Origin: Gemmatimonadota bacterium
GTDB lineage: Bacteria > ARS69
Assembly: GCA_030747075.1 (NCBI GenBank)
Contig: JASLLL010000023.1
Coordinates: 1-44,683, forward strand
Length of the DNA: 44,683 bases
Reading direction: 5' to 3'
Part shown: piece after piece, positions 11,175 to 39,292 of the stretch
How the letters are laid out: each line of letters opens with the position of its first letter
Position numbering within the stretch: position 1 is the stretch's first letter
The notes under the pieces: generated by a model
The model's database searches: none
The model's input: only the letters and a program-made list of their open reading frames with translations
What the model was told of the DNA's origin: nothing
Made by a program: the position numbers and the translations under genes

Positions 11175-12748
11175 CGAAGCGCGCCTCCGGCGGCGATCAC
11201 TTCGACGCGATCGTCATCGGGTCCGGTGCGGGCGGATTGTCGGCAGCCATCACCATGGCGCATGGCGGGCTTCGCACGCTCGTCCTGGAGGCGCACTCGC
11301 TTCCGGGCGGGTGGTGCCATACCTTCGCGCTGGAGGGCTTCCGGTTCAGCCCGGGAGTCCACTACCTCGGAGAGCTGGGCGAAGGCGGAGCGCTCCGGGG
11401 GATGTTCGCGGAACTCGGGCTGGGCGAGGCCCTCTCCTTCCGCGAGATGAATCCGGACGGCTACGATCATCTCGCGATCGGCGGCGAACGGTTCGACATC
11501 CCCGCGGGGGGCGAACGCTTCCGCGACCGCCTGCACGCCCGCTTCCCACGCGAGAGGCGCGGCATAGACCGATACCTCCGCCGGGTCGATCGCGTCTTCC
11601 GCGATCTTCGTCGCTCCCGTCCCGGCACAGGCGCGAAGGCGCTTCTCTCCACGGCGGTCCGCGCGCCGAACTTGGCGCTGCACGGACTTCGCCCGACAGC
11701 GGGCCTCATCCGGCGCCACGCGCGGGATCCGCTCCTTCAGGCCATTCTCGGGATCCGCGCGGGGAATCACGGGGTGGCTCCCTCGCGCGTGCCCTTCGCG
11801 CAGCATGTCGCCATCGAGGGGCACTACCGCGAAGGCGCGTGGTACCCCAGGGGCGGGGGCTCCGCCATCCCAAAGGCCATGATCCGGCGACTCCGCGAAC
11901 TCGGCGGCGAGATCCGGTTGCGCGCGGAGGTCGATGAAATTCTCGTCGACGGGACCGGCCGCCACGCACGCGCCGAGGGAGTGCGTCTGGTCGACGGAGA
12001 AGAACTTCGCGCGCCGATCCTCGTCTCCAATGCGGACGCGCACCGAACTTATCTGTCACTGGTCGGGCGCGAGCACCTCCCCGCGCGACTCCTTCGGAAG
12101 CTCCACCGAACGCCGCACTCCGTCTCGGCGGTAAGTCTCTTTCTCGGAATCGACATGGACCTCGCCGCCGCCGGTTTCGACTCGGGCAACTGGTGGATTC
12201 AGCGCGGCCCCGATGTCGAAGAGACCTATCGATACGCGGCCCGCGCGGACCTCCCCGGGGCGGGAGATCCACCGGGCGTCTTCCTCTCCTTCCCCACGCT
12301 CAAGGATCCGTCGATCCGCCGGGACGGGCTTCACACGGCGGAAGCGTTTGCGTTTGTCTCACGCGAGGCCTTTCGCCCGTTCGACCACACCGAACACGCC
12401 CGGCGCGGCATCGCGTACGAGGAGTTCAAGGCGGACCTTTCGGAGCGCATCATGCGCCGCATCGAAACGGTGGCGCCCGGGATCGGTTCGCGTGTGGTGT
12501 TCTCCGCACTCGGGACGCCGCTGACCAACGAGCACTTTCTACTTGGAACGAACGGCAGCCTCTACGGACCGGAGAAGACCGCGCAGTGGATCGGACCGTT
12601 TGCGTATCCCATGGAGACGCCCGTTGGCGGGCTCTTCCACTGCGGAGCCAGCACGCTCGGGCATGGCGTCATGGGGGTCGTGGGGTCCGGAATGCTGGCG
12701 GGAGGGCGCGCACTCGCACGCGCGGGACGCGCCCTCTCCGTCACCTGA
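11171..12748 (+). CDS. FAD-dependent oxidoreductase, RetSat/phytoene desaturase family
   Basis: 525 residues. The N-terminal FAD Rossmann motif is 'IVIGSGAGGLSAAI' (residues ~14-27), then 'VLEAHSLPGGWCHTF', which is typical of carotenoid desaturases/isomerases and all-trans-retinol 13,14-reductase-like proteins. The central 'RGGGSAIPKAMIRRLRELGGEI' and C-terminal 'GGLFHCGASTLGHGVMGVVGSG' (the FAD-closing strand) complete the fold. No signal peptide, so probably cytosolic or membrane-associated. The start is TTG 11171, overlapping the hydrolase stop as TTGA, so translation is coupled to the upstream secreted hydrolase. It converges with the next gene and their stops overlap by 8 bp (12741-12748). 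No carotenoid synthesis genes are in the window, so the polyene or lipid substrate is unknown. Confidence 0.85.
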   Translation: MTKRASGGDHFDAIVIGSGAGGLSAAITMAHGGLRTLVLEAHSLPGGWCHTFALEGFRFSPGVHYLGELGEGGALRGMFAELGLGEALSFREMNPDGYDHLAIGGERFDIPAGGERFRDRLHARFPRERRGIDRYLRRVDRVFRDLRRSRPGTGAKALLSTAVRAPNLALHGLRPTAGLIRRHARDPLLQAILGIRAGNHGVAPSRVPFAQHVAIEGHYREGAWYPRGGGSAIPKAMIRRLRELGGEIRLRAEVDEILVDGTGRHARAEGVRLVDGEELRAPILVSNADAHRTYLSLVGREHLPARLLRKLHRTPHSVSAVSLFLGIDMDLAAAGFDSGNWWIQRGPDVEETYRYAARADLPGAGDPPGVFLSFPTLKDPSIRRDGLHTAEAFAFVSREAFRPFDHTEHARRGIAYEEFKADLSERIMRRIETVAPGIGSRVVFSALGTPLTNEHFLLGTNGSLYGPEKTAQWIGPFAYPMETPVGGLFHCGASTLGHGVMGVVGSGMLAGGRALARAGRALSVT

Positions 12749-15041
12749 GAAGCAGCGCTCTCCCGGTCGCGACCGCGTCGCCGGACTCCAGCCGCAGAAG
12801 GTAGACTCCCGGGCCGAGCCGCGATCCGTCATCGGCAAGGCCATCCCACTCCACGCCGCCGGACGCGGGCGCGACCCCGTCGAGAAGCACGCGCACACGC
12901 CTTCCCGCGATATCATGCACCGAGAGCCGTGAAGATGCGTTCGCCCCCGCGGACCATGAGACGCGTGTCGAACCCCGGAACGGATTCGGCGCGATGAGTT
13001 CGATTCGCGGAAGAACGCCCCCGGAGAATCCGGGCAGTTCCCCGGCACCCGTCTGCTCCGCATAGCCGATCTGCATCATGAGAAAGATCCCCGCCTCGGT
13101 GGAGATGGCCCCGTGTTCCTCGTTCGCCGTCGTCGTCGGGAAGTACACCGCGTCGAAGGGAGTCTTGCTCAACAGGTCCGGATCTCCCGCGACATCGTGG
13201 AAGAGATCCAGCGGATATCCTCCCGCCGTCTGAAGATCCAGCGAACTGATCGTCGGCACGAAGCAGTGATTGGGATAATTGGTGGTGATGTCCCCGAGCG
13301 TCACCGTGCTTCCGAGAATGTCGGCCGTCGGGGTCTCGGCCGCCGCTGTTTCCATCATGTTGAGCCACCCGCCCGGCGCGTTGTCGTACGGCTTCGAGTG
13401 GGTGAAGTAAACATCCAGCGAAGTGTCCGGAAGCGGCCAGATCTGGTCGATCTCTCCCTGGAAGATCCGTGTCTGCGGCAGGTAGTCCGGCACCGCCCAC
13501 ACATTCCCGATCACATCCACCAGCCAGTTGTAATACTCCCAGTCGATGATCCGGCTTCCCGGCGACATCTGTGACGAGTACCCCATCTGCGACGCGCCCG
13601 CCCCGGCCCCGCTTCCGTCAGCGATGGCCACCTTCCAGATTCGCGGATCGGACGGGTAGTTTCCCATCGCGTTCAGCTCCGCGAAGAGGTCCTGCTTCAA
13701 CGGATCGACCCCCGGGTTCGGCGTCTGGTTGTAGTGGTAGTAAAGCATCTGCCTGGTGGCCGGACGATCCAGCAGGCTCAGGTAGTAGCTCGCCACATCC
13801 GACCAGTCCGCAAAGAACATGATCCAGTACTGAAGGCCGAGCGGAATGTTCGCGCCCTGCTGCGGACCATCGACCGAGATCAGCATCTTCGTGTTCGAGT
13901 CGAGCCCGTTGTCCTCCATCCACACCGTGGCATACCGTGCCACCAGTCCTCCCAGACTCGCTCCGCCGAGGAAGATCTCCCGCTCGACCGACATCTCCGC
14001 CGTGATGCGCTCCAGCAGCCCGGCAAGACCCAGTGCATTCCGCTGAATGTAGTCCGTGGCGTCGCCGAAGTTCATGAGCACCACATCGAACCCGGACGCC
14101 AGCAGAAGTGTCAGCATTCCCTCCGCGTCGAAGAGTTCCACAATCTCCGGCCAGCTCATGGTGTTGTCGATGTCGAAGCCTTCCACCATGACCAGCGGCA
14201 CCTCGATGGAAGCATGCCCCGCGCCCAGGAAGACATAAGCGTCATAGGTGGCCGTGCCGCCCGCGTAGGAATACGGCGCGGTCTGGTTCTCCCAGTAGAG
14301 ATCCGGGACCAGAACCATGGCCGCGCGAATCTCCAGCGGGAACGAACTCACGAGCGTCTCGCCGTCGCGCGTCGCCCGCAGGCGAAGCGTGCGCTCTCCC
14401 GGATCCGGGTAGGTCGTCTCGACGGCGACACCGGGCCGAATCGGACGGAAACCCCGTCCGTCCGCGAGATCAATGGCGTAGTTGACGGCGCCGCCCCCGG
14501 CGTTCGACAGAAGAAGCGACTCCTCCAGCCGAAGAGCCACCCGCCCGGCCCGCGCGGTTCCGGTGAGGGCGGATGCGGCGAAGACGCGAAACTCCTCGAA
14601 CGCCGGGGATCCCCCGGCCGGGATCGCGTCGCGAAGGCGATTCATGCGGAAGTCGAGAAGACCAACGGCCACGACGCCGTCTTGCGCGGCGGCGCGCGTT
14701 CGCGTGCGCACTTCCACCGGTGCGGGCACCGACGAGGGGTCCGCATGCGAATTCCGCACTTCGAGGCAAGCCTGCCGCCAGTCACCCGCACGAACCGACG
14801 GAGCGTCCGCGCTTCCGTCGAGCGCACCGAGATTCATCAGGGAGACGGTGCGTTCGTGGAGCAGTCCGGTCGAGAGACGCGAAAGATCCAGGCTGGAAAG
14901 TTGCGCAGCTCTCTCCGCGCGGACTTCGTCCGGAAGGGCTCCGGAGATCCGCACCTGCGGAGGTTCGGTGGCGAATGCGGCCGTCGCAAGAAACGCGACT
15001 GTAGCCAGAATCGTCAGAGCCCTCTGCTTGTCCCTCACCAT
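12741..15041 (-). CDS. Secreted serine hydrolase-like protein with sorting domain
   Basis: 766 residues from ATG 15041 (GGGAGG 5 nt upstream), with a signal peptide ending near 'ATAAFA'. Residues ~30-270 are a beta-rich, unassigned N-terminal region. Residues ~270-620 resemble an alpha/beta hydrolase: 'LVMVEGFDIDNT' (oxyanion strand), 'GFDVVLMNFGDATDYIQRN', nucleophile elbow 'LGGASLGGLVARYA', then 'SVDGPQQGANIPLG', as in lipase/PGAP1-like enzymes. The end is a sorting module: 'NPFRGSTRVSW', 'LSVHDIAGRRVRVLLDG', 'WDGLADDGSRLGPGVYLLR'. Predicted surface or extracellular esterase or lipase; substrate unknown. The 3' end overlaps the convergent FAD oxidoreductase by 8 bp. The region to its upstream neighbour (15042-15161) carries no clear promoter. 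Confidence 0.82.
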   Translation of the reverse strand: MVRDKQRALTILATVAFLATAAFATEPPQVRISGALPDEVRAERAAQLSSLDLSRLSTGLLHERTVSLMNLGALDGSADAPSVRAGDWRQACLEVRNSHADPSSVPAPVEVRTRTRAAAQDGVVAVGLLDFRMNRLRDAIPAGGSPAFEEFRVFAASALTGTARAGRVALRLEESLLLSNAGGGAVNYAIDLADGRGFRPIRPGVAVETTYPDPGERTLRLRATRDGETLVSSFPLEIRAAMVLVPDLYWENQTAPYSYAGGTATYDAYVFLGAGHASIEVPLVMVEGFDIDNTMSWPEIVELFDAEGMLTLLLASGFDVVLMNFGDATDYIQRNALGLAGLLERITAEMSVEREIFLGGASLGGLVARYATVWMEDNGLDSNTKMLISVDGPQQGANIPLGLQYWIMFFADWSDVASYYLSLLDRPATRQMLYYHYNQTPNPGVDPLKQDLFAELNAMGNYPSDPRIWKVAIADGSGAGAGASQMGYSSQMSPGSRIIDWEYYNWLVDVIGNVWAVPDYLPQTRIFQGEIDQIWPLPDTSLDVYFTHSKPYDNAPGGWLNMMETAAAETPTADILGSTVTLGDITTNYPNHCFVPTISSLDLQTAGGYPLDLFHDVAGDPDLLSKTPFDAVYFPTTTANEEHGAISTEAGIFLMMQIGYAEQTGAGELPGFSGGVLPRIELIAPNPFRGSTRVSWSAGANASSRLSVHDIAGRRVRVLLDGVAPASGGVEWDGLADDGSRLGPGVYLLRLESGDAVATGRALLLR

Positions 15042-15161
15042 GACTGCCTCCCGCGCCGGTTCCCGGTCATTGGCCAGGGGCCTGTCCAGCCCCACGAAGA
15101 ATCCATCATCCCCTATCCGCCCTCGCCAACGCAACTGCGGCGTTCTATGGCGGTTCTCCGC

Positions 15162-23254: not shown

Positions 23255-23289
23255 AGTGTCCTCGGTCCCGTTCACCCGTGAGGTAGATG

Positions 23290-24228
23290 ATGCGTCCCCT
23301 CTTGCACCCCTGTTCCCTTGCCGCTCCGCTCTCGCTGATGGTGTGCCTGCTTCTCGTACACACTCCCGCTCCCGCCGAACAACTTGGTGCCTACGCCGAA
23401 GGATCTCTGTCGTTTCATTACCAGCAGTGGCCCTTCGGTTCCTTCTCCGGCGACTTCTCCGCAACCGGCACCGTGCTGGACACGACCGGATGGCAGAACG
23501 GCCAGACGGAAAGTTGCGGAGGATCGATCAGCGCCGCGGCGGACTCCTTCACTGTCTGGGGCTACGGAGCCACACTGAACGCGGACTCCACCACGGATCT
23601 GGCGGGCATCTGGGTGCGCACTGTCGGAGCACCGCAACCGGGGAACTACGCCGTCGACATGCAGGACTTCACCGCCGGTTTTATCTTCTTCGACAACATC
23701 TCCGGGTTCACCCCGCCGGCAGACTCGACGGACCCCGCCGCCTGGCTCGACGGCATTGTGGCCGATCACAAGTTCGCTGCAAGCGGCGGCTCCATTCAGG
23801 TGTCCGCAGTCGCCGACACCGTGTTCCTCGGTTCCTTCTCCGGGTCGATGGTGGATCCAAACACCTTCATGATCATCAGCGTGTCCGGCGGATCCTTCGA
23901 CTTCACCGGGCCGCCTCTTCCCACGGCCGCGCCCCTGAGCGGAACCGCTTCCCTTGCGGACCACTCCGTGCATCCCAGCCCTTTCTCCGGGCACACGCGC
24001 ATTCGTTTCTCGCTCGATGCCCCCTCCCACGCACGGGTCTCCATCTTTGATGTCTCGGGACGGCAGGTGGCCGTGCTCTTTGACAGGGCGGTCCCGGAAG
24101 GGGAGCACTCCGCACACTGGTCCGGAATGAATGCGGAGGGGTTCTCCGTGCAGCGGGGGTTGTACTTCTACCGAATCCAGACCGGGCAGGGAACCGTCGC
24201 CTCCGGGAAGGTCGTGCGGGCGCCGTAG
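23290..24228 (+). CDS. Small secreted protein with sorting domain, function unknown
   Basis: 312 residues. Of two adjacent ATGs (23287, 23290) the second is preferred because it sits 6 nt after GAGG. The signal peptide is a long hydrophobic run ending near 'APAEQ'. Residues ~30-210 are a Gly/Ser/Asp-rich, beta-type region with no motif I recognise. One Cys lies in 'TESCGGS', and a repeated 'GSFSGDFS'/'GSFSGSMVD' pattern suggests beta-strand repeats. The C-terminal ~75 residues are the sorting module: 'SPFSGHTRIRF', 'VSIFDVSGRQVAVLFD', 'WSGMNAEGFSVQRGLYFYR'. Here the common 'NPF' is 'SPF' and 'GVYF' is 'GLYF'. Probably displayed on the cell surface. No enzyme signature is seen. Confidence 0.75.
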   Translation: MRPLLHPCSLAAPLSLMVCLLLVHTPAPAEQLGAYAEGSLSFHYQQWPFGSFSGDFSATGTVLDTTGWQNGQTESCGGSISAAADSFTVWGYGATLNADSTTDLAGIWVRTVGAPQPGNYAVDMQDFTAGFIFFDNISGFTPPADSTDPAAWLDGIVADHKFAASGGSIQVSAVADTVFLGSFSGSMVDPNTFMIISVSGGSFDFTGPPLPTAAPLSGTASLADHSVHPSPFSGHTRIRFSLDAPSHARVSIFDVSGRQVAVLFDRAVPEGEHSAHWSGMNAEGFSVQRGLYFYRIQTGQGTVASGKVVRAP

Positions 24229-24322
24229 GGCAGCTCGGGGCGGTTCCACTCTACCGCGACGGAAGCCCCCGGCCCATTCCGGGCGGCTCGACTCCTATTT
24301 GGAGATTCTGGACCTGTTTGGC

Positions 24323-24351
24323 TTGAATGGACCCCGCCGATTCGCTACGCT
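24323..24351 (+). promoter_or_regulatory. Candidate promoter before the 24407 gene fossil
   Basis: TTGAAT (24323-24328), 17 nt, TACGCT (24346-24351). A ribosome site GGAGG follows at about 24393-24397, so the initiation signals of the broken gene are still in place. Confidence 0.35.
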
Positions 24352-24406
24352 GTCTCACCGCTTCCCTTCCCCCCCTTTCTCCTTCCATGATCTGGAGGAT
24401 TCCCCC

Positions 24407-24752
24407 ATGACAAACCGCCCCTCTTGCAAGAGGGCGTGGAGCCGCTGGATGCTGCACGCGTGCGCACTTGCGCATCTCATCATCCCCGGCGCCTCATCCG
24501 CATTGACGCTCGATCTCTTCGTCCGCGAAGGCGTTCTCACCACGACCGACGCCCACCGGTGCCGGCCTGCGCGTGCTCGATGTTCGGGGGGCCGTCGTTC
24601 ACACGGCGTCCATTCCGGCAGGCCGGACTTCCGGAACCTATCGCTGGGACGGGAGGAACAACGCCGGGCGCCAGTGCGCGGACGGCGTGTACTACATTCG
24701 TATGGAATCGGAGAGCGGACACGCCACGCGTGCGGTCAGCCTGCTTCGGTAA
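24407..24752 (+). pseudogene. Fossil of a secreted sorting-domain gene (internal deletion and frameshift)
   Basis: ATG 24407, behind TGGAGGATTCCCCC, opens a normal signal peptide ('LHACALAHLIIPGASSA') that runs about 45 codons. Near 24540-24560 the meaningful frame shifts by one base. From 24555 another frame reads 'TGAGLRVLDVRGAVV', 'YRWDGRNNAGRQCADGVYY' and 'IRMESESGHATRAVSLLR', stopping with TAA at 24750-24752. That is the second half of the sorting module carried by the neighbours. The whole mature domain and the first half of the module ('NPF...') are gone. The original ATG frame instead runs on as nonsense to 24862. Read as a gene gutted by an internal deletion that also changed frame; a sequencing error alone would not explain the missing middle. 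Confidence 0.7.
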
Positions 24753-24763
24753 GCGACTACGGT

Positions 24764-24793
24764 GCGGGCGCCGGGCCAAACCCCGACGCCCGC
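24764..24793. terminator. Weak GC hairpin between converging ends
   Basis: GCGGGCG (24764-24770) pairs with CGCCCGC (24787-24793) around a 16-nt loop. It lies between the end of the fossil and the end of the minus-strand protease gene. There is no U-tract on either side, so its role as a terminator is doubtful. Confidence 0.25.
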
Positions 24794-24804
24794 CTCCCCG
24801 CAGT

Positions 24805-27114
24805 CTACTTCATGAGCACCATCCTGCGTGTGTCGGCGCCCTGCGGAGTGTCCAGCCGGTAGAAGTAGACGCCCGCCGATGCCGGCGTCCCGTCCGCTCC
24901 CGTTCCGCGCCATACCACCGTCCGAACGCCTCCGACCGACTCTTCGTCATCCACCAGCGTGGAGACGAGGCGGCCGGCTACATCGTACACGGACAGCCTC
25001 GCGGGTGAACCCGCCAGCACCGCGAACCGGATGACCGTCGAACCGTCAAACGGGTTCGGCGAGTTGCCCAAAAGTCCACTGAGCCCGGACACTCCGGCCT
25101 CCCCCGCGCCCGTGGCGCCGGAGAGGTCTCCGCCACCCCTCGGCAGGAGAACCGGCGTACCCCCCATCACCGAGACGACCCCGAAGATGGTGTAGTAGTT
25201 CCCCTTCTTGATCGAGGTGGGATCGATTCCGGTATGAGGATCGATCACGACCTTGATCCCTGTTGAGGGATGCAGAGCCATCTCCTGCACAAGCGGGAAG
25301 TCCCCGGGAGCGCCATCCGCCCCCGCGTATCCACGCACACCAATATGCAGCCCGATGTGCTCGCACAGCTTCGCGGTGCCCGGCTCCACGATCGGCGCCT
25401 GAATCGGGGCCGTAGGCCCGAACTTCTGGACCTGGTAAATCTGGCTCAGCATGATCTCCCCGAACGGTTCGACCACGACACCAGACACCTGCACCGAATC
25501 TCCGATGTCCAGCATCGGCAACTGCGAACCCTCGACGCGAATCCCGCCGGTGCAGTTCTCCACATAGATCACGCCGGGTCCCAGCGATCCGTTGCGAACG
25601 GTCACCGTTCCCTGAACCATCGCTTCCGTCCCCGACCAGGGGGAGTTCGCGAAGCAACGCCCGGGAGCGCCCGTGTACTCCTGGATGGCGTCGATGTTGT
25701 TGCCGCCCGGGTAGCAGTCGGGCGGGTTGCGGCGGATCTTGCCGGTCCGCCCGATGTGGGTCTGGATCGCCGCGCGGGCCTCGTACAGGTTCTGGGAGGA
25801 GGATGCGTCAAAGTACAGCCCCCCCGTGCGCGCCGCGAGGTCTTCCAGGTTCTCACTGTCTGTAGCGCGGAACGGCGCCACATCTTCCGTCACGGGAAGC
25901 CCCGGGTTTGCGTCCGGACCGTAGTAGTTGGTCATATCAATCACATAAACAACCACATCCGCGGCAGCAGCGGCGGTCGCCACATCCGCGTAGGTCGTGC
26001 ATCCGCAAGTTCCGTCGCTGGAGTTCTCCCCGGTGTCCGTATAGACCACGAGATTCGCCGGAGCCTGTTCCTGTGCCTTCGTGATGGCGCAGCACGCGGA
26101 CTCCCACAGCGGGGTCATCCCGCACGGGTAGGTGGACTCTACGGCCGTGTGCAAGAGGGCCGTATCGGTCGTCCAGTCCTGCAACAGTTCGTACCCCGGT
26201 CGGGAGACGCACGAAGAGCAGCTCGACGCCGTTCCCTCTCCGAAGGCGGCCACCGAGATCAGGTTGTCCGCAAACGCATCCACGAACGCGTGGGCGGACG
26301 CCTTCGCGTCATCCATGCGAGAGGACACGCACATCGATCCTGTCTGATCGATCAGAAGCGTGGTCGGGTACTCCGGATAGAGACAGACCGCCGCCTCTTC
26401 GTCGTCCGGCTCCAGGCTGCGGCCCGCCGCCGTACCGGCATTGCAGAAGTAGTACGCGTACATCGTCGGACGAAGGTCCTGGTCTGCCGAGTACTCATCG
26501 GAGTGGTGAATCCCGATCGAATGTCCGTACTCGTGCGTCAACACCGTCTGCAGCTCAAACTCGGAACAGTCGTCGTTCCAGAGCCAGGTGTCCGCGGAAT
26601 CCATGAGGACATCCACATCCGTGATCTCGCCGGAGGAGACGATCTCAGTGATAATCGTGATCGCCAGCGTTCCGGAGGCTGATCCCACGACTCCGTCCAC
26701 GCAGTCTCCCGCGTCGGACGCCGCGTTGTAGAACACGGTGGTGTTGGCGCCGTCAAGACCGGACAGACGCTGCGAAGTGGCCCCCTGGTAGCTGAATCGA
26801 ATGATCGCGCCGTCGACATCTTCCCACGACTGATAAGCCGCCTGGGCCGCAGACTCAATGTCCGCCTGCGTCAGGCCCGCGTCGGAAGCGTCCGCCTCTG
26901 CGTCCACATTGACCCAGAAGGGGACATTGTATTCGAAGAACCGGACAAAGGTGTCCTCGGAGTCACAGTTCAGAAGGGCACCTGCGCAGTAAGTGCCGTC
27001 TTCGCCCATTGCGCCGATCAGGCGGAACGCAGACGACGGAACCGCGACGGCCAGAAGCAGCACGGCCGGAAGAAGAAGGGCAAGAGTTCGCATCTTCAGG
27101 AGAGAGTTCTGCAT
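24805..27114 (-). CDS. Secreted matrixin-type metalloprotease with VWA, OB-like and sorting domains
   Basis: 769 residues from ATG 27114. GTG 27120 is the alternative; it overlaps the upstream stop but sits only 4 nt from AGGAGG. After the signal peptide ('LLLAVAVPSSAF'), residues ~30-250 form a matrixin/metzincin with the complete zinc site 'HEYGHSIGIHH' and a Met-turn candidate in 'RPTMYAYYF'. Residues ~255-450 are a von Willebrand A domain with a full MIDAS pattern, 'LIDQTGSM' (DxTxS). Residues ~505-585 resemble an OB-fold module ('VQGTVTV', 'GDSVQVSGVVV'). The end is the sorting module: 'NPFDGSTVIRFAV', 'LSVYDVAGRLVSTLVD', 'GVYFYR'. Fourteen or more cysteines suggest disulfides. Predicted extracellular protease or adhesin, co-expressed with the small protein upstream. 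Confidence 0.88.
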   Translation of the reverse strand: MQNSLLKMRTLALLLPAVLLLAVAVPSSAFRLIGAMGEDGTYCAGALLNCDSEDTFVRFFEYNVPFWVNVDAEADASDAGLTQADIESAAQAAYQSWEDVDGAIIRFSYQGATSQRLSGLDGANTTVFYNAASDAGDCVDGVVGSASGTLAITIITEIVSSGEITDVDVLMDSADTWLWNDDCSEFELQTVLTHEYGHSIGIHHSDEYSADQDLRPTMYAYYFCNAGTAAGRSLEPDDEEAAVCLYPEYPTTLLIDQTGSMCVSSRMDDAKASAHAFVDAFADNLISVAAFGEGTASSCSSCVSRPGYELLQDWTTDTALLHTAVESTYPCGMTPLWESACCAITKAQEQAPANLVVYTDTGENSSDGTCGCTTYADVATAAAAADVVVYVIDMTNYYGPDANPGLPVTEDVAPFRATDSENLEDLAARTGGLYFDASSSQNLYEARAAIQTHIGRTGKIRRNPPDCYPGGNNIDAIQEYTGAPGRCFANSPWSGTEAMVQGTVTVRNGSLGPGVIYVENCTGGIRVEGSQLPMLDIGDSVQVSGVVVEPFGEIMLSQIYQVQKFGPTAPIQAPIVEPGTAKLCEHIGLHIGVRGYAGADGAPGDFPLVQEMALHPSTGIKVVIDPHTGIDPTSIKKGNYYTIFGVVSVMGGTPVLLPRGGGDLSGATGAGEAGVSGLSGLLGNSPNPFDGSTVIRFAVLAGSPARLSVYDVAGRLVSTLVDDEESVGGVRTVVWRGTGADGTPASAGVYFYRLDTPQGADTRRMVLMK

Positions 27115-27116
27115 GA

Positions 27117-27671
27117 TCACTCCACCTCCTTCTCGGTGCGCACCGCCGTGCGGACTGCGGACTCCAGCGACGCCAGTGTCTCCGGGATCACAAGTTCCGG
27201 ACGGCGTCGCACATAGGCGATGCCTTCCAGATCCCGCTGCACACGAGGAGCGCCCGCATCGCGCACGACCTCGAACTTCCCTTCCGACAGGTTCACGACA
27301 TGATGAGTTCCAGCAGGTCCCTCACGCAGAAAGAGCACGACCTCGTCGCCGGTGGAAAGGCATGGCGCACCAATGACGGAGGTCCGCTTTCCTTCCCACT
27401 GCCCGCCGAGCATGCGAAGCGTGACCGCTTCCGCCGGTGCTCCCTTGAAGGAGCCGGCCACGGTGACATGCAGTTCGGTGAAGATGTTCCCGCGTTCCGC
27501 GAAACAGCGGACGGCGCCGATTGTGCCGTGCACGACAGCATCCGACAGACCGCTGAGCTCCCCGATGGAGAGCGGTTCCAGGGCGGTCGTGGCCTCTGCT
27601 GAGGGCACAACCAAGAGAGTCACGACAGCGGCAATCGCCGCTCCGCGCAGGCAAACAGAAAGTTGATTCAT
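27117..27671 (-). CDS. Small secreted partner of the matrixin protease
   Basis: 184 residues from ATG 27671 (GGAG, 6-nt spacer), with a signal peptide ending near 'PSAEA'. The mature part reads 'LSIGELSGLSDAVVHGTIGAV', then 'ITxLHVTVAGSFKG'-like strands (actual 'TELHVTVAGSFKG'), 'VTLRMLGGQWEG', 'GDEVVLFLREG' and 'LSEGKFEVVRD'. I recall this pattern in small exported proteins encoded beside matrixin genes in other phyla, but cannot name a domain. There is one Cys pair and no sorting module. Its stop lies 2 nt before the protease ATG, so they form a two-gene operon behind the TATAAT promoter at 27760-27789. It could be an inhibitor, chaperone or binding partner of the protease. Confidence 0.75.
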   Translation of the reverse strand: MNQLSVCLRGAAIAAVVTLLVVPSAEATTALEPLSIGELSGLSDAVVHGTIGAVRCFAERGNIFTELHVTVAGSFKGAPAEAVTLRMLGGQWEGKRTSVIGAPCLSTGDEVVLFLREGPAGTHHVVNLSEGKFEVVRDAGAPRVQRDLEGIAYVRRRPELVIPETLASLESAVRTAVRTEKEVE

Positions 27672-35217: not shown

Positions 35218-38200
35218 CTATCGGATCTTGACCGCGCGGGCGACTGCCTTCGAATCTCCGCCGACTCCGCGCGCCTTGACATGAACGATATATGTGCCGT
35301 TTGCCACGGGAGTGCCGTTTGAGTCTCTACCGTTCCAGACGACATGATTCATGTCCGCGGCTGCCGGAGCGGAGTCCGACTCCCAGACTTCTCGTCCGGC
35401 AAGCGTATACACTCGCACACGAACGTCATCCGCGCCTGCGGCCAGTCGGTAGTAGAGGCTCGCTTCCTGACTGAAGGGATTGGGGTAAACGACAAGATCC
35501 TCCACAGCCACTTCCAGGCGAATGCTCAATGTGAAGCTGGAACTCCATCCGGTGCCGTTGTCCGCCTGGAGAAGGACATCGTAGTCCTCCGGGCGGGGCA
35601 CCATCTCGTAATCCACCGTGATCGACCGGGCAACCCCCCCGGCGGTGGTGTCCGAAGGTGTCACCTCAAACTCCGATTCCGGGACCGCACCTAGAATCGT
35701 GTCCACAATACGGAAGTCGCGAATCCCGTGCGCGTCGGTCACTTCCACACGGATCGCAATCGTCTGCCCCTGCTCGGTGACATCCAGGTACGACCCATCG
35801 CTCACCGCATTCCCGTTGACGGTGACTGTGTACTCCGGCTCCCCGACCCGCGGAGTCACCGCCGGGTCCCCCAGAAGGACAAACCGCTGCGCGGCCTGCC
35901 GGGTCTGCCCCGGCGACGCATACCTCATCTGGAAAAGCAGGCGGGCTCGAGTGGCAGCCTCTCCCAGAGTCCAGGCGAAAACGCCCGTCTGGCCGACATC
36001 AGGGAGATCCCCTCCCACACCCGTGGAGCCGGGATGGAAAAACGCGGTGAACAGATCTTCATTGAACACGAGATTCGGCCCGAGGAATTCATAGCCGGAA
36101 CTGGCGAAAACGCCGATGGCCCCGCCCGGCGCCGCGGCGCTGAGCGGCCGCACATTCATGAGCTTCTCCGCGACGCAGTCCCCAAAGTCCCCTTCGTCCG
36201 ACCGGTCAAACTCCGCGAGGTGGCAGGCAAAGCCGAAGAAGACAAACGGCATCCCCTCGTTGGAGAGACTCTCCACATCGTGGATCCCCCCGATCGGGAA
36301 GTCCTTGAACACCTCTTCATGGGCCAGCCAGTACTTGTTGGCGTGGCCCTGATAGTTCCAGAAGAGAGCGCCCCGGTTGAGCTTGGACCGCAGGTCCGGA
36401 TGCACGGCCTGCCGGGTCTCCGTCCGCATGCAATAGTATTCGCCGTTGGGATCTTCGGAGTTCCGGCAGTCGTACCAGATGCCACAGTCATCGCCCTCGC
36501 TCTCGCACTCCTGAGAGTATTCCTTGTAGCAGTCGTCCGCACAGGGATGCGTCCATTCCCCCACATACACGCGTTCGGAGAACATCGGGCTGAACGGGTG
36601 CGTCTCCAGCGCCACGGCCAGTTCCTCCGAGGTCTCCCGGAATCCGGATTCCGATGTTCGGAAGACATACCCCGAGGCGCCTCCGCCCAGGCTCCCGCTG
36701 AACTGGTCGTCTGCCAGAAAGACGCCTCGCTCCGTCCAGTCTCCCGCCGAGTCCAGGGCCTCGTAGGCCGCGATGCGTTCTACATTCCAGGCGGCTTCAT
36801 CCGCCGTTCCTACCGCAAGCCTTCCCACAAAGATGTCCGGGAGATCATCGAACGCCGCGCCGGGAGCGGTTCGGGTAAGTTCCGCGTAGTACTGATCGGA
36901 CTCTTCCGGCGCCCCTTCATACTGCGCCCAGAGGCTGTGGCTGGGGATGAAGTCCGGATCCGACCGCCCTCCCACCGCGCGATGATCCTCGCTGGCGTCG
37001 CCGAAGAGGCAAAGGAACGCTAGGGGCGAGCCCCACCGATGGAAGGCATACGCCGCATACGACTTGATGGCTTCCGGCGTACGATGGCCGTTTGAGAACA
37101 GGTCGTAAACTTCGGAGACCGGGGCCAAGACCGAGCCGTACTGCGCGGCGCGAAGCCCTGCCAGTTCGCTGGCTTCGGTCAGGAAATCCTCGTGGGCCAC
37201 GACGACATACCCGGCGCCCGCGCCGGCCGCCAGAATGCCGGTCGGAGGAACGCGCTCCACCTCCGCCGGTGCGACTTCCGAAACAAGCGACTCGCGAACC
37301 GCCAGGTAGACGGCCAACCCGGTCGCGTTGTCGTGGTCGAAGTGAAGTCCGTAGCGTCCACCGCCTTCGCTCACAATCTGGACGGCCTCATCCACCCCTA
37401 CTCGAGCGGGGTCCGATGGATCCGTGATATCGTAGAGGGACAGATCCGATCCTCCAAAATCAGACACTCCTGCATACACATTGGACGAAGGGCCACTGCC
37501 CGTGTCCACGGCCAGGTGGCCATTCCTCGCGAGGAGGCTCCGCTCCCAGGTAATCTCGAACCAGTCAAAGAAGAACCGCGACTGGCTGTACCGGGTGGAG
37601 GTGTCGTCGCCCGAATAGGTGATGCCCTCCAGAAGGAAGCGATCCGTCCCGTCACCCGCGAGACTCCCTGCCGGAATGGGATGCGTGGAGAGCATGCTGT
37701 CGGGCACGCCGATGAAGCCGCTTCCGCTCGGGTACAGACTCCAGTTGTAAAAGAGCCTGGATCCCACGGTGGTCCCGTTGATCTCGAACCGGATGGAGTT
37801 GGTAAACCCGTCATCGATGGGGTACCCGCCCGAGACCACGCGAGCCGTCAGCGTCGCCACTCCTCCGGGCACGGGATCCGGAGCGGTGAAGTCCTGCTCG
37901 ATAATGAGGCCGGGGGCCCCCTCTTCCAGAGAGATGCTGGTCTTGTGGTCATTCCAGTAGTAGAACTCGGACTCGAAGCCCCCCTGCCCGGGTCCGAAGT
38001 CCGGGGGGCGCAGATAGTAGCGGATGTCTCGCTCTACATGAACTGTGGAGAGCGTATGCGCCAGCGTGTCCGCGCTCCCTCCCGACAAGCTCCCCGTCGG
38101 TCGCACAATCCGCATCCTGGAAGCAACCGACGAATCGACGGCCACCCAGTAGAAGTTGTCCGTGTCAAAAAGATCTTCGTGCTCCCAGCCGGAAGTCATC

Positions 38201-39246
38201 CACTGATCCCGAAAGGACCGGCCGTAAAACCGGAAGGCGTCGCCGGTGTCGAACACGCCGTTGCCGTTTCGGTCCAGCACTTCCCCGGGCACCGCAATCC
38301 GCTGAAACAGGTCCGCTGCCCCCACCCCGGCGTCGTCCACGGAATCCAGATCGAAGTCTCTCTGATAAAGGACGGGTTCCTCCACGGAAACCCCGGCCGG
38401 GAACCCTGCCGCAGCCAGGGCGGCATACGACAATTCCGTCAGTCCGGTCTCGGCAATACGGATTCTCCACTGATCCCCTGCGCCCCAGGGTGAGTCGCCC
38501 ACCATGAGCGCGTCGCCCGGCCCGCGGGTACTCCACGCAACGGCGCGGTCGGCATTCAGAACCGTTCCGCGCAGCGTCCTCTCTGCCAGCAGTTCGGGCC
38601 TCGCGGGAGGCCCTCGACGGGGACCGCCTCGACCGGGTTCGGGCTCAAAGCGAACCTCCACCACTGCCCGGCGAAGCACCCGGTATGACCGCCGGAAGAC
38701 ATCCGCGCGGACCGCACGCACCACGACGGACACCAATCGGTGATGACGCAGCCCCGCAGGGGTAGAGAGGGAGAAGGCCGGGTCCGGAGATGCCCCGCGG
38801 CGATGATAGACTTCGCCTTCCACGGGGGGGAGTTCCCGGACAAAGTCCACACCGAAAGGTTCATGCACTGCCTCTCGGACCGGCACCGGCGTGACGGCAC
38901 CCTGCTGCACCGATCCCCACTCTTCGGAACGGACGATCAGCCGCGCGCGGTTGCCCGGGGGGAGGCCCACCGGGAAAGCACGAATGGGGATCTCGGGCTC
39001 TCCGATTGCATCCGTGTGCCCGTATCCGTCCAGAAACAGCCGCACGAAATCTCGTGAGTCGGACGGGACCACATCCAGCCGGGCTTCCCCCGGCGTGATC
39101 TCCAGCACGACATGAGCATCATCGGATGCCAGAACGCGCACACCTGCGGGAGCGGCATGAGCCAGCGACGCGAACCCGAGGATCCAGCCTGCCACGGCGA
39201 GACCGGCAGACATTCCCTGAGAAGCGAATCGGATGGAAGAGATCAT
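35218..39246 (-). CDS. Secreted C25 (gingipain/PorU-like) cysteine peptidase with sorting domain
   Basis: 1,342 residues from ATG 39246 (TTG 39255 is possible; ribosome site weak either way). The signal peptide ends near 'SLAHA'. A PorU/gingipain-type propeptide and beta regions (~30-600) precede the C25 domain (~690-1110), with 'CLFGDASEDHR', 'DIFVGRLAVGTADEA', predicted catalytic His968 ('FWNYQGHANKYW') and Cys1008 ('FFGFACHLAEFDR'), then 'APGGAIGVFASSG'. A six-cysteine insert lies between 'YVGEWTHP' and 'ETRQAVHP'. The tail is a sorting module: 'NPFSQEASLYY', 'VRVYTLAGREVW', 'WNGRDSNGTPVANGTY'. It could be the type-IX sortase (PorU) itself or a secreted protease. It sits just upstream of murQ on the same strand. 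Confidence 0.88.
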   Translation of the reverse strand: MISSIRFASQGMSAGLAVAGWILGFASLAHAAPAGVRVLASDDAHVVLEITPGEARLDVVPSDSRDFVRLFLDGYGHTDAIGEPEIPIRAFPVGLPPGNRARLIVRSEEWGSVQQGAVTPVPVREAVHEPFGVDFVRELPPVEGEVYHRRGASPDPAFSLSTPAGLRHHRLVSVVVRAVRADVFRRSYRVLRRAVVEVRFEPEPGRGGPRRGPPARPELLAERTLRGTVLNADRAVAWSTRGPGDALMVGDSPWGAGDQWRIRIAETGLTELSYAALAAAGFPAGVSVEEPVLYQRDFDLDSVDDAGVGAADLFQRIAVPGEVLDRNGNGVFDTGDAFRFYGRSFRDQWMTSGWEHEDLFDTDNFYWVAVDSSVASRMRIVRPTGSLSGGSADTLAHTLSTVHVERDIRYYLRPPDFGPGQGGFESEFYYWNDHKTSISLEEGAPGLIIEQDFTAPDPVPGGVATLTARVVSGGYPIDDGFTNSIRFEINGTTVGSRLFYNWSLYPSGSGFIGVPDSMLSTHPIPAGSLAGDGTDRFLLEGITYSGDDTSTRYSQSRFFFDWFEITWERSLLARNGHLAVDTGSGPSSNVYAGVSDFGGSDLSLYDITDPSDPARVGVDEAVQIVSEGGGRYGLHFDHDNATGLAVYLAVRESLVSEVAPAEVERVPPTGILAAGAGAGYVVVAHEDFLTEASELAGLRAAQYGSVLAPVSEVYDLFSNGHRTPEAIKSYAAYAFHRWGSPLAFLCLFGDASEDHRAVGGRSDPDFIPSHSLWAQYEGAPEESDQYYAELTRTAPGAAFDDLPDIFVGRLAVGTADEAAWNVERIAAYEALDSAGDWTERGVFLADDQFSGSLGGGASGYVFRTSESGFRETSEELAVALETHPFSPMFSERVYVGEWTHPCADDCYKEYSQECESEGDDCGIWYDCRNSEDPNGEYYCMRTETRQAVHPDLRSKLNRGALFWNYQGHANKYWLAHEEVFKDFPIGGIHDVESLSNEGMPFVFFGFACHLAEFDRSDEGDFGDCVAEKLMNVRPLSAAAPGGAIGVFASSGYEFLGPNLVFNEDLFTAFFHPGSTGVGGDLPDVGQTGVFAWTLGEAATRARLLFQMRYASPGQTRQAAQRFVLLGDPAVTPRVGEPEYTVTVNGNAVSDGSYLDVTEQGQTIAIRVEVTDAHGIRDFRIVDTILGAVPESEFEVTPSDTTAGGVARSITVDYEMVPRPEDYDVLLQADNGTGWSSSFTLSIRLEVAVEDLVVYPNPFSQEASLYYRLAAGADDVRVRVYTLAGREVWESDSAPAAADMNHVVWNGRDSNGTPVANGTYIVHVKARGVGGDSKAVARAVKIR

Positions 39247-39292
39247 TCGGTTCAACCGGGGTGAATCGGGTGGAGGGGCTCACGACCGGGGA

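Follow-up and report, generated by a model that had tools for sequence, protein, structure and literature searches.

Two pieces of coding sequence, read in different frames and separated by a short junction, lie on the forward strand between two intact genes for type IX secretion cargo (Table 1). The window, by which we mean the whole 44,683-nt stretch of DNA analysed, is a single contig from the draft genome (2.67 Mb in 61 contigs) of an uncultured member of the Gemmatimonadota, available as an assembly with no reads. The upstream piece, here called the head, has a frame-0 translation from 24407 that begins MTNRPSCKRAWSRWMLHACALAHLIIPGASSALTLDLFVREGVLTTT..., with positive charge at its start, followed by hydrophobic residues and a cleavage site of the A type; its signal peptide was recognised by an in-house rule (charge, hydrophobic stretch, A-x-A type site) rather than by SignalP. 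The downstream piece, the tail, reads ...GAGLRVLDVRG...YRWDGRNNAGRQCADGVYYIRM...LLR in frame +1 before its stop codon at 24750-24752, and the open frame around it spans 81 aa.

Table 1. Features of the two-part locus and of type IX-related genes in the same window
Feature	Position	Strand	Basis
Leader with Shine-Dalgarno-like GGAGG 5' of the ATG	24391..24406	+	Sequence, scored
Head, 47 codons in frame 0, from the start codon through the signal peptide into the first mature residues (3' end approximate)	24407..24547	+	Translation, signal-peptide rule, codon log-odds
Junction stretch of ~19 nt, assigned to neither frame	24548..24566	+	Repeat comparisons
Tail, frame +1: final 61 codons of a type IX C-terminal sorting module with its stop codon, NPF half absent	24567..24752	+	Profile matches, codon log-odds
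Frame 0 read through from the ATG: 151 aa, a signal peptide and then out-of-frame residues, up to a stop codon within the convergent M10 gene at its 3' end	24407..24862	+	Translation
Neighbour, intact cargo gene (313 aa) whose sorting module is complete	23287..24228	+	Profile matches
Neighbour, intact convergent cargo gene: Matrixin-type metallopeptidase (M10), VWA-like, full sorting module	24805..27120	-	Profile matches
PorU-like Peptidase C25 with propeptide and sorting module	35218-39255	-	212 bits; NCBIfam cut-off (420) not reached

Codon statistics change frame at about 24550. In the head, codon log-odds are best in frame 0 at -0.7 (-16.6 and -11.7 in the other frames), a non-positive best value being common for signal peptides; in the tail they are best in frame +1 at +8.1 (-18.4 and -12.9 elsewhere). 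Measured in each part's own frame, third-position G+C (head 0.79, tail 0.77) compares with 0.79-0.81 in three neighbouring genes, and neither part has an internal stop in its own frame. By these statistics the coding potential of one gene is split over frames, a property by which pseudogenes are recognised. The two-part feature described in an earlier note on this DNA is thus real, as codon statistics place the head in frame 0 and, together with profile matches, the tail in frame +1. The same note had the frame shifting by one base; the offset between the parts is indeed +1, but a one-base insertion or deletion is not what is seen.

Among the 580 ATGs of the window that open a 47-codon frame on either strand, four combine a Shine-Dalgarno match with an N-terminus that the in-house rule accepts as signal-peptide-like; the head is one, and two of the other three coincide with, or are close to, the starts of cargo ORFs (24805-27120 and 12741-15134, both on the minus strand). 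The chance expectation for a ribosome site with a signal peptide is 0.2 per strand (same-length Markov sequences, 20 simulations), so the GGAGG and signal-peptide-like start, previously called intact, exceed Markov chance. The promoter had been called intact as well, for which we find no support: a sigma-70 type scan of 24180-24860 returned no match, and the promoter type of the host may differ from sigma-70. A terminator scan at the locus also gave no match. No recognisable copy of the head peptide was found elsewhere; 33 of 98 genomes (own genome included) matched at E <=1, and the best match outside its own genome, at E 0.0024, is at the level of signal-peptide-likeness. The 151-aa product that frame 0 would give has no sorting module, which disqualifies it as a substrate of type IX secretion.

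The tail corresponds to the last two thirds of the type A type IX sorting domain (TIGR04183 / PF18962 Por_Secre_tail) and of the FlgD Ig-like domain PF13860. Pfam FlgD_ig matches it with 37.4 bits (cut-off 27) over profile positions 27-78 of 79, and a module model trained on 36 examples from the same genome matches with 50.0 bits over columns 29-92 of 92; the conserved WDG and GVY positions are kept. It differs from those known domains in lacking about the first 28 columns, in scoring below the TIGR04183 cut-off (16.2 bits against 23, so that model alone would not call it) and in lying out of frame with the signal peptide. With all sequences cut to common columns, 35 of the 36 sampled modules (leave-one-out range 40.7 to 87.4) outscore the tail, which reaches 49.3 bits; the sample is biased upwards because 30 of the 36 are the best-scoring modules of the genome. 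Judged from sequence, the tail's low score hints at some decay or at ordinary variation. The suggestion that the event may be recent, made because both ends seemed well preserved, accordingly has no support in these scores and is not refuted by them.

What should precede the tail is missing. The NPF half of the module (PNPF...T.I.F.LP) is at chance level in the head, at -21.1 bits against a shuffle mean of -23.5, with 343 of 1,000 shuffles as good and 530 of 1,320 control protein blocks scoring as well. Across the six frames of 24229-24600 it scores -6.1 to -1.2 bits, compared with 24.1 to 35.7 for seven intact modules of the window (random control: median -4.8, 95% point 2.7, maximum 32.3). 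An NPF half surviving in the head frame, which makes a tempting alignment by eye, is ruled out by the shuffles and the six-frame scan. Nor is there a cargo domain between head and tail, and the earlier reading of a lost mature domain and half a sorting module is supported. With the NPF half gone, a one-base sequencing slip alone cannot explain the locus; a stretch was lost.

At the junction, 24548-24566 forms a direct repeat with 24868-24886 in the module of the convergent neighbour, 302 bp away, with 17 of 19 letters shared. This is the sole other place in the 2.67-Mb genome with at most two mismatches to the junction 19-mer, which has no exact second copy in the genome; at up to three mismatches the pattern occurs at 10 places (itself included) and a reversed control at 9. 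Repeats of this strength within 700 bp number eight in the window, the junction's own included, and occur in 51 of 880 regions of 700 bp sampled from it, which makes the junction repeat a lead and not evidence. RNA folding at the junction is no better than that of shuffled sequences (z -0.53).

Type IX cargo is recognised by an N-terminal signal peptide, a complete C-terminal sorting module in frame with it, and T9SS machinery in the genome. The head provides the first, by the in-house rule, and the genome encodes the T9SS translocon protein SprA (TIGR04189, 550.7 bits against a cut-off of 200), which is matched in all five genomes of the phylum, over the cut-off in four, and in none of 14 controls. 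The module, by contrast, is confined to columns 29-92 of 92 and lies in frame +1. Several intact module-bearing genes surround the locus. Elsewhere in the genome, two neighbouring cargo genes on one contig (C16:29326-32472 and C16:27116-30256; L040 and L045) have near-identical sorting modules and look like a recent tandem duplication.

Sorting modules are abundant in this genome, which has 111 FlgD_ig stretches at E <=1, not all over the cut-off and most of them in long open frames. Eight of the 111 lie in frames shorter than 200 aa, and half of these run off contig ends (C24, C34, C50 and C16). The four inside contigs are the present locus, C28:10368-10538, C12:20999-21184 and C1:147457-147612. 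The C28 module, on the minus strand (L154, C28:9000-12000), is complete and belongs to an M1-peptidase cargo gene (Peptidase_M1, 95.5 bits) that is broken by a switch from frame 0 to frame +1 just 5' of it, near C28:10740-10780. Those on C1 (L155) and C12 (L153) have no signal peptide that could be recognised and look like orphans, placed right after unrelated genes, which we take to be recO and, presumably, a glycosyltransferase gene, respectively. Cargo-gene remnants are thus not unique to 24407-24752. The locus had been offered as a case of cargo domains turning over between conserved ends. Of these ends, the tail is indeed a module shared with other genes, but no recognisable copy of the head was found elsewhere; what the three other modules, broken or orphan, support is that cargo genes are lost recurrently, not that cargo is exchanged.

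We compared the locus with relatives at family level, the phylum being represented by five genomes, of which one is its own and the other four lie outside its genus. Neither an intact copy nor a syntenic locus was found among these four. Their matches to the tail are general module paralogues, with 46% identity in the best match by E-value; the M10 neighbour without its module finds nothing in them at E 1e-30 (one of five genomes matched, its own). topA is found in three of the four, and 11 other window queries around those three topA genes gave no match, in stretches of which two of the three are short on one side of topA. A scan of genome contigs with topA kept 80 loci of 378, from a collection that may leave out the genome's own records. 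No synteny was demonstrated among the topA loci, five of which (L070-L074) were compared further; L074, with 61% topA identity, has no neighbour in common except for a weak partial tricorn-like match.

Taken together, these results suggest that the locus is probably a pseudogene of type IX secretion cargo. The ancestor would have been one cargo gene, or two tandem co-oriented ones, running from the signal peptide at 24407 to the module stop at 24752, and a single deletion most likely removed the mature cargo domain together with about the first 28 columns of the sorting module. If its length was not a multiple of three, the deletion would have left head and tail in different frames; since one such event gives both the loss and the offset, the deletion proposed earlier fits, but the separate frameshift proposed with it is not needed. 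We infer that the remnant gives no functional product. This reading draws on the codon frame switch at about 24550, a signal peptide and ribosome site beyond chance, the truncated FlgD_ig tail and the absent NPF half, and also on the three other short-framed modules inside contigs, SprA in the genome and the PorU-like C25 peptidase in the window. Against it we count the lack of an intact copy or syntenic locus, the draft state of the contig and the fact that both parts are free of internal stops.

An assembly artefact, in which the 5' part of one cargo gene was joined to the 3' part of another or a stretch was collapsed, is unlikely. Draft contigs and sorting modules that recur more than 100 times would favour such an error, as would the modules near the edges of C24, C34, C50 and C16, which indicate that modules can lie at contig breaks; however, the junction is not a long exact repeat, its 19 nt have no exact second copy, and the best other DNA match of the tail within the genome, 71% over 87 nt, is too diverged to mislead most assemblers. 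We regard it as quite improbable that head and tail are unrelated, the one still live at 24407, as a short secreted protein or a gene start, and the other an orphan module at 24567 left by a different event. Although the C1 and C12 modules look like just such orphans, head and tail lie within about 19 nt of each other on the correct strand and in the correct order, and the codon bias changes frame directly between them.

A functional short secreted protein that reaches the tail through programmed +1 frameshifting is scarcely credible: each part is open in its own frame and the WDG and GVY positions persist, but the module is without its NPF half, frame 0 has no stop near the junction, the RNA fold is unremarkable, and the same short two-frame arrangement is seen in none of the four family genomes. 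There is finally a very small chance that sorting modules, present in more than 100 copies, are recurrent sites of breakage or template switching, in which case the 19-nt junction would be templated filler, the other broken or orphan modules would be further products, and the module itself would drive the birth and loss of cargo genes.

The locus is most likely a dead gene of an ordinary kind, of which this module-rich genome has a few. Bacterial pseudogenes formed by internal deletion keep their ends, lose their middle and show a frame offset; this locus resembles them in all of these respects and differs only in the kind of gene affected. No paper on this kind of remnant was apparent from the titles and opening lines of abstracts in the literature searched. 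For annotation, the practical consequence is that automatic annotation may wrongly predict a secreted protein of 151 aa at 24407, and that, in counts of type IX cargo based on module matches, at least four of the 111 entries for this genome would be non-functional or doubtful. Although the present evidence does not show breakage, module-driven breakage, if true, would reveal how large repertoires of type IX cargo turn over.
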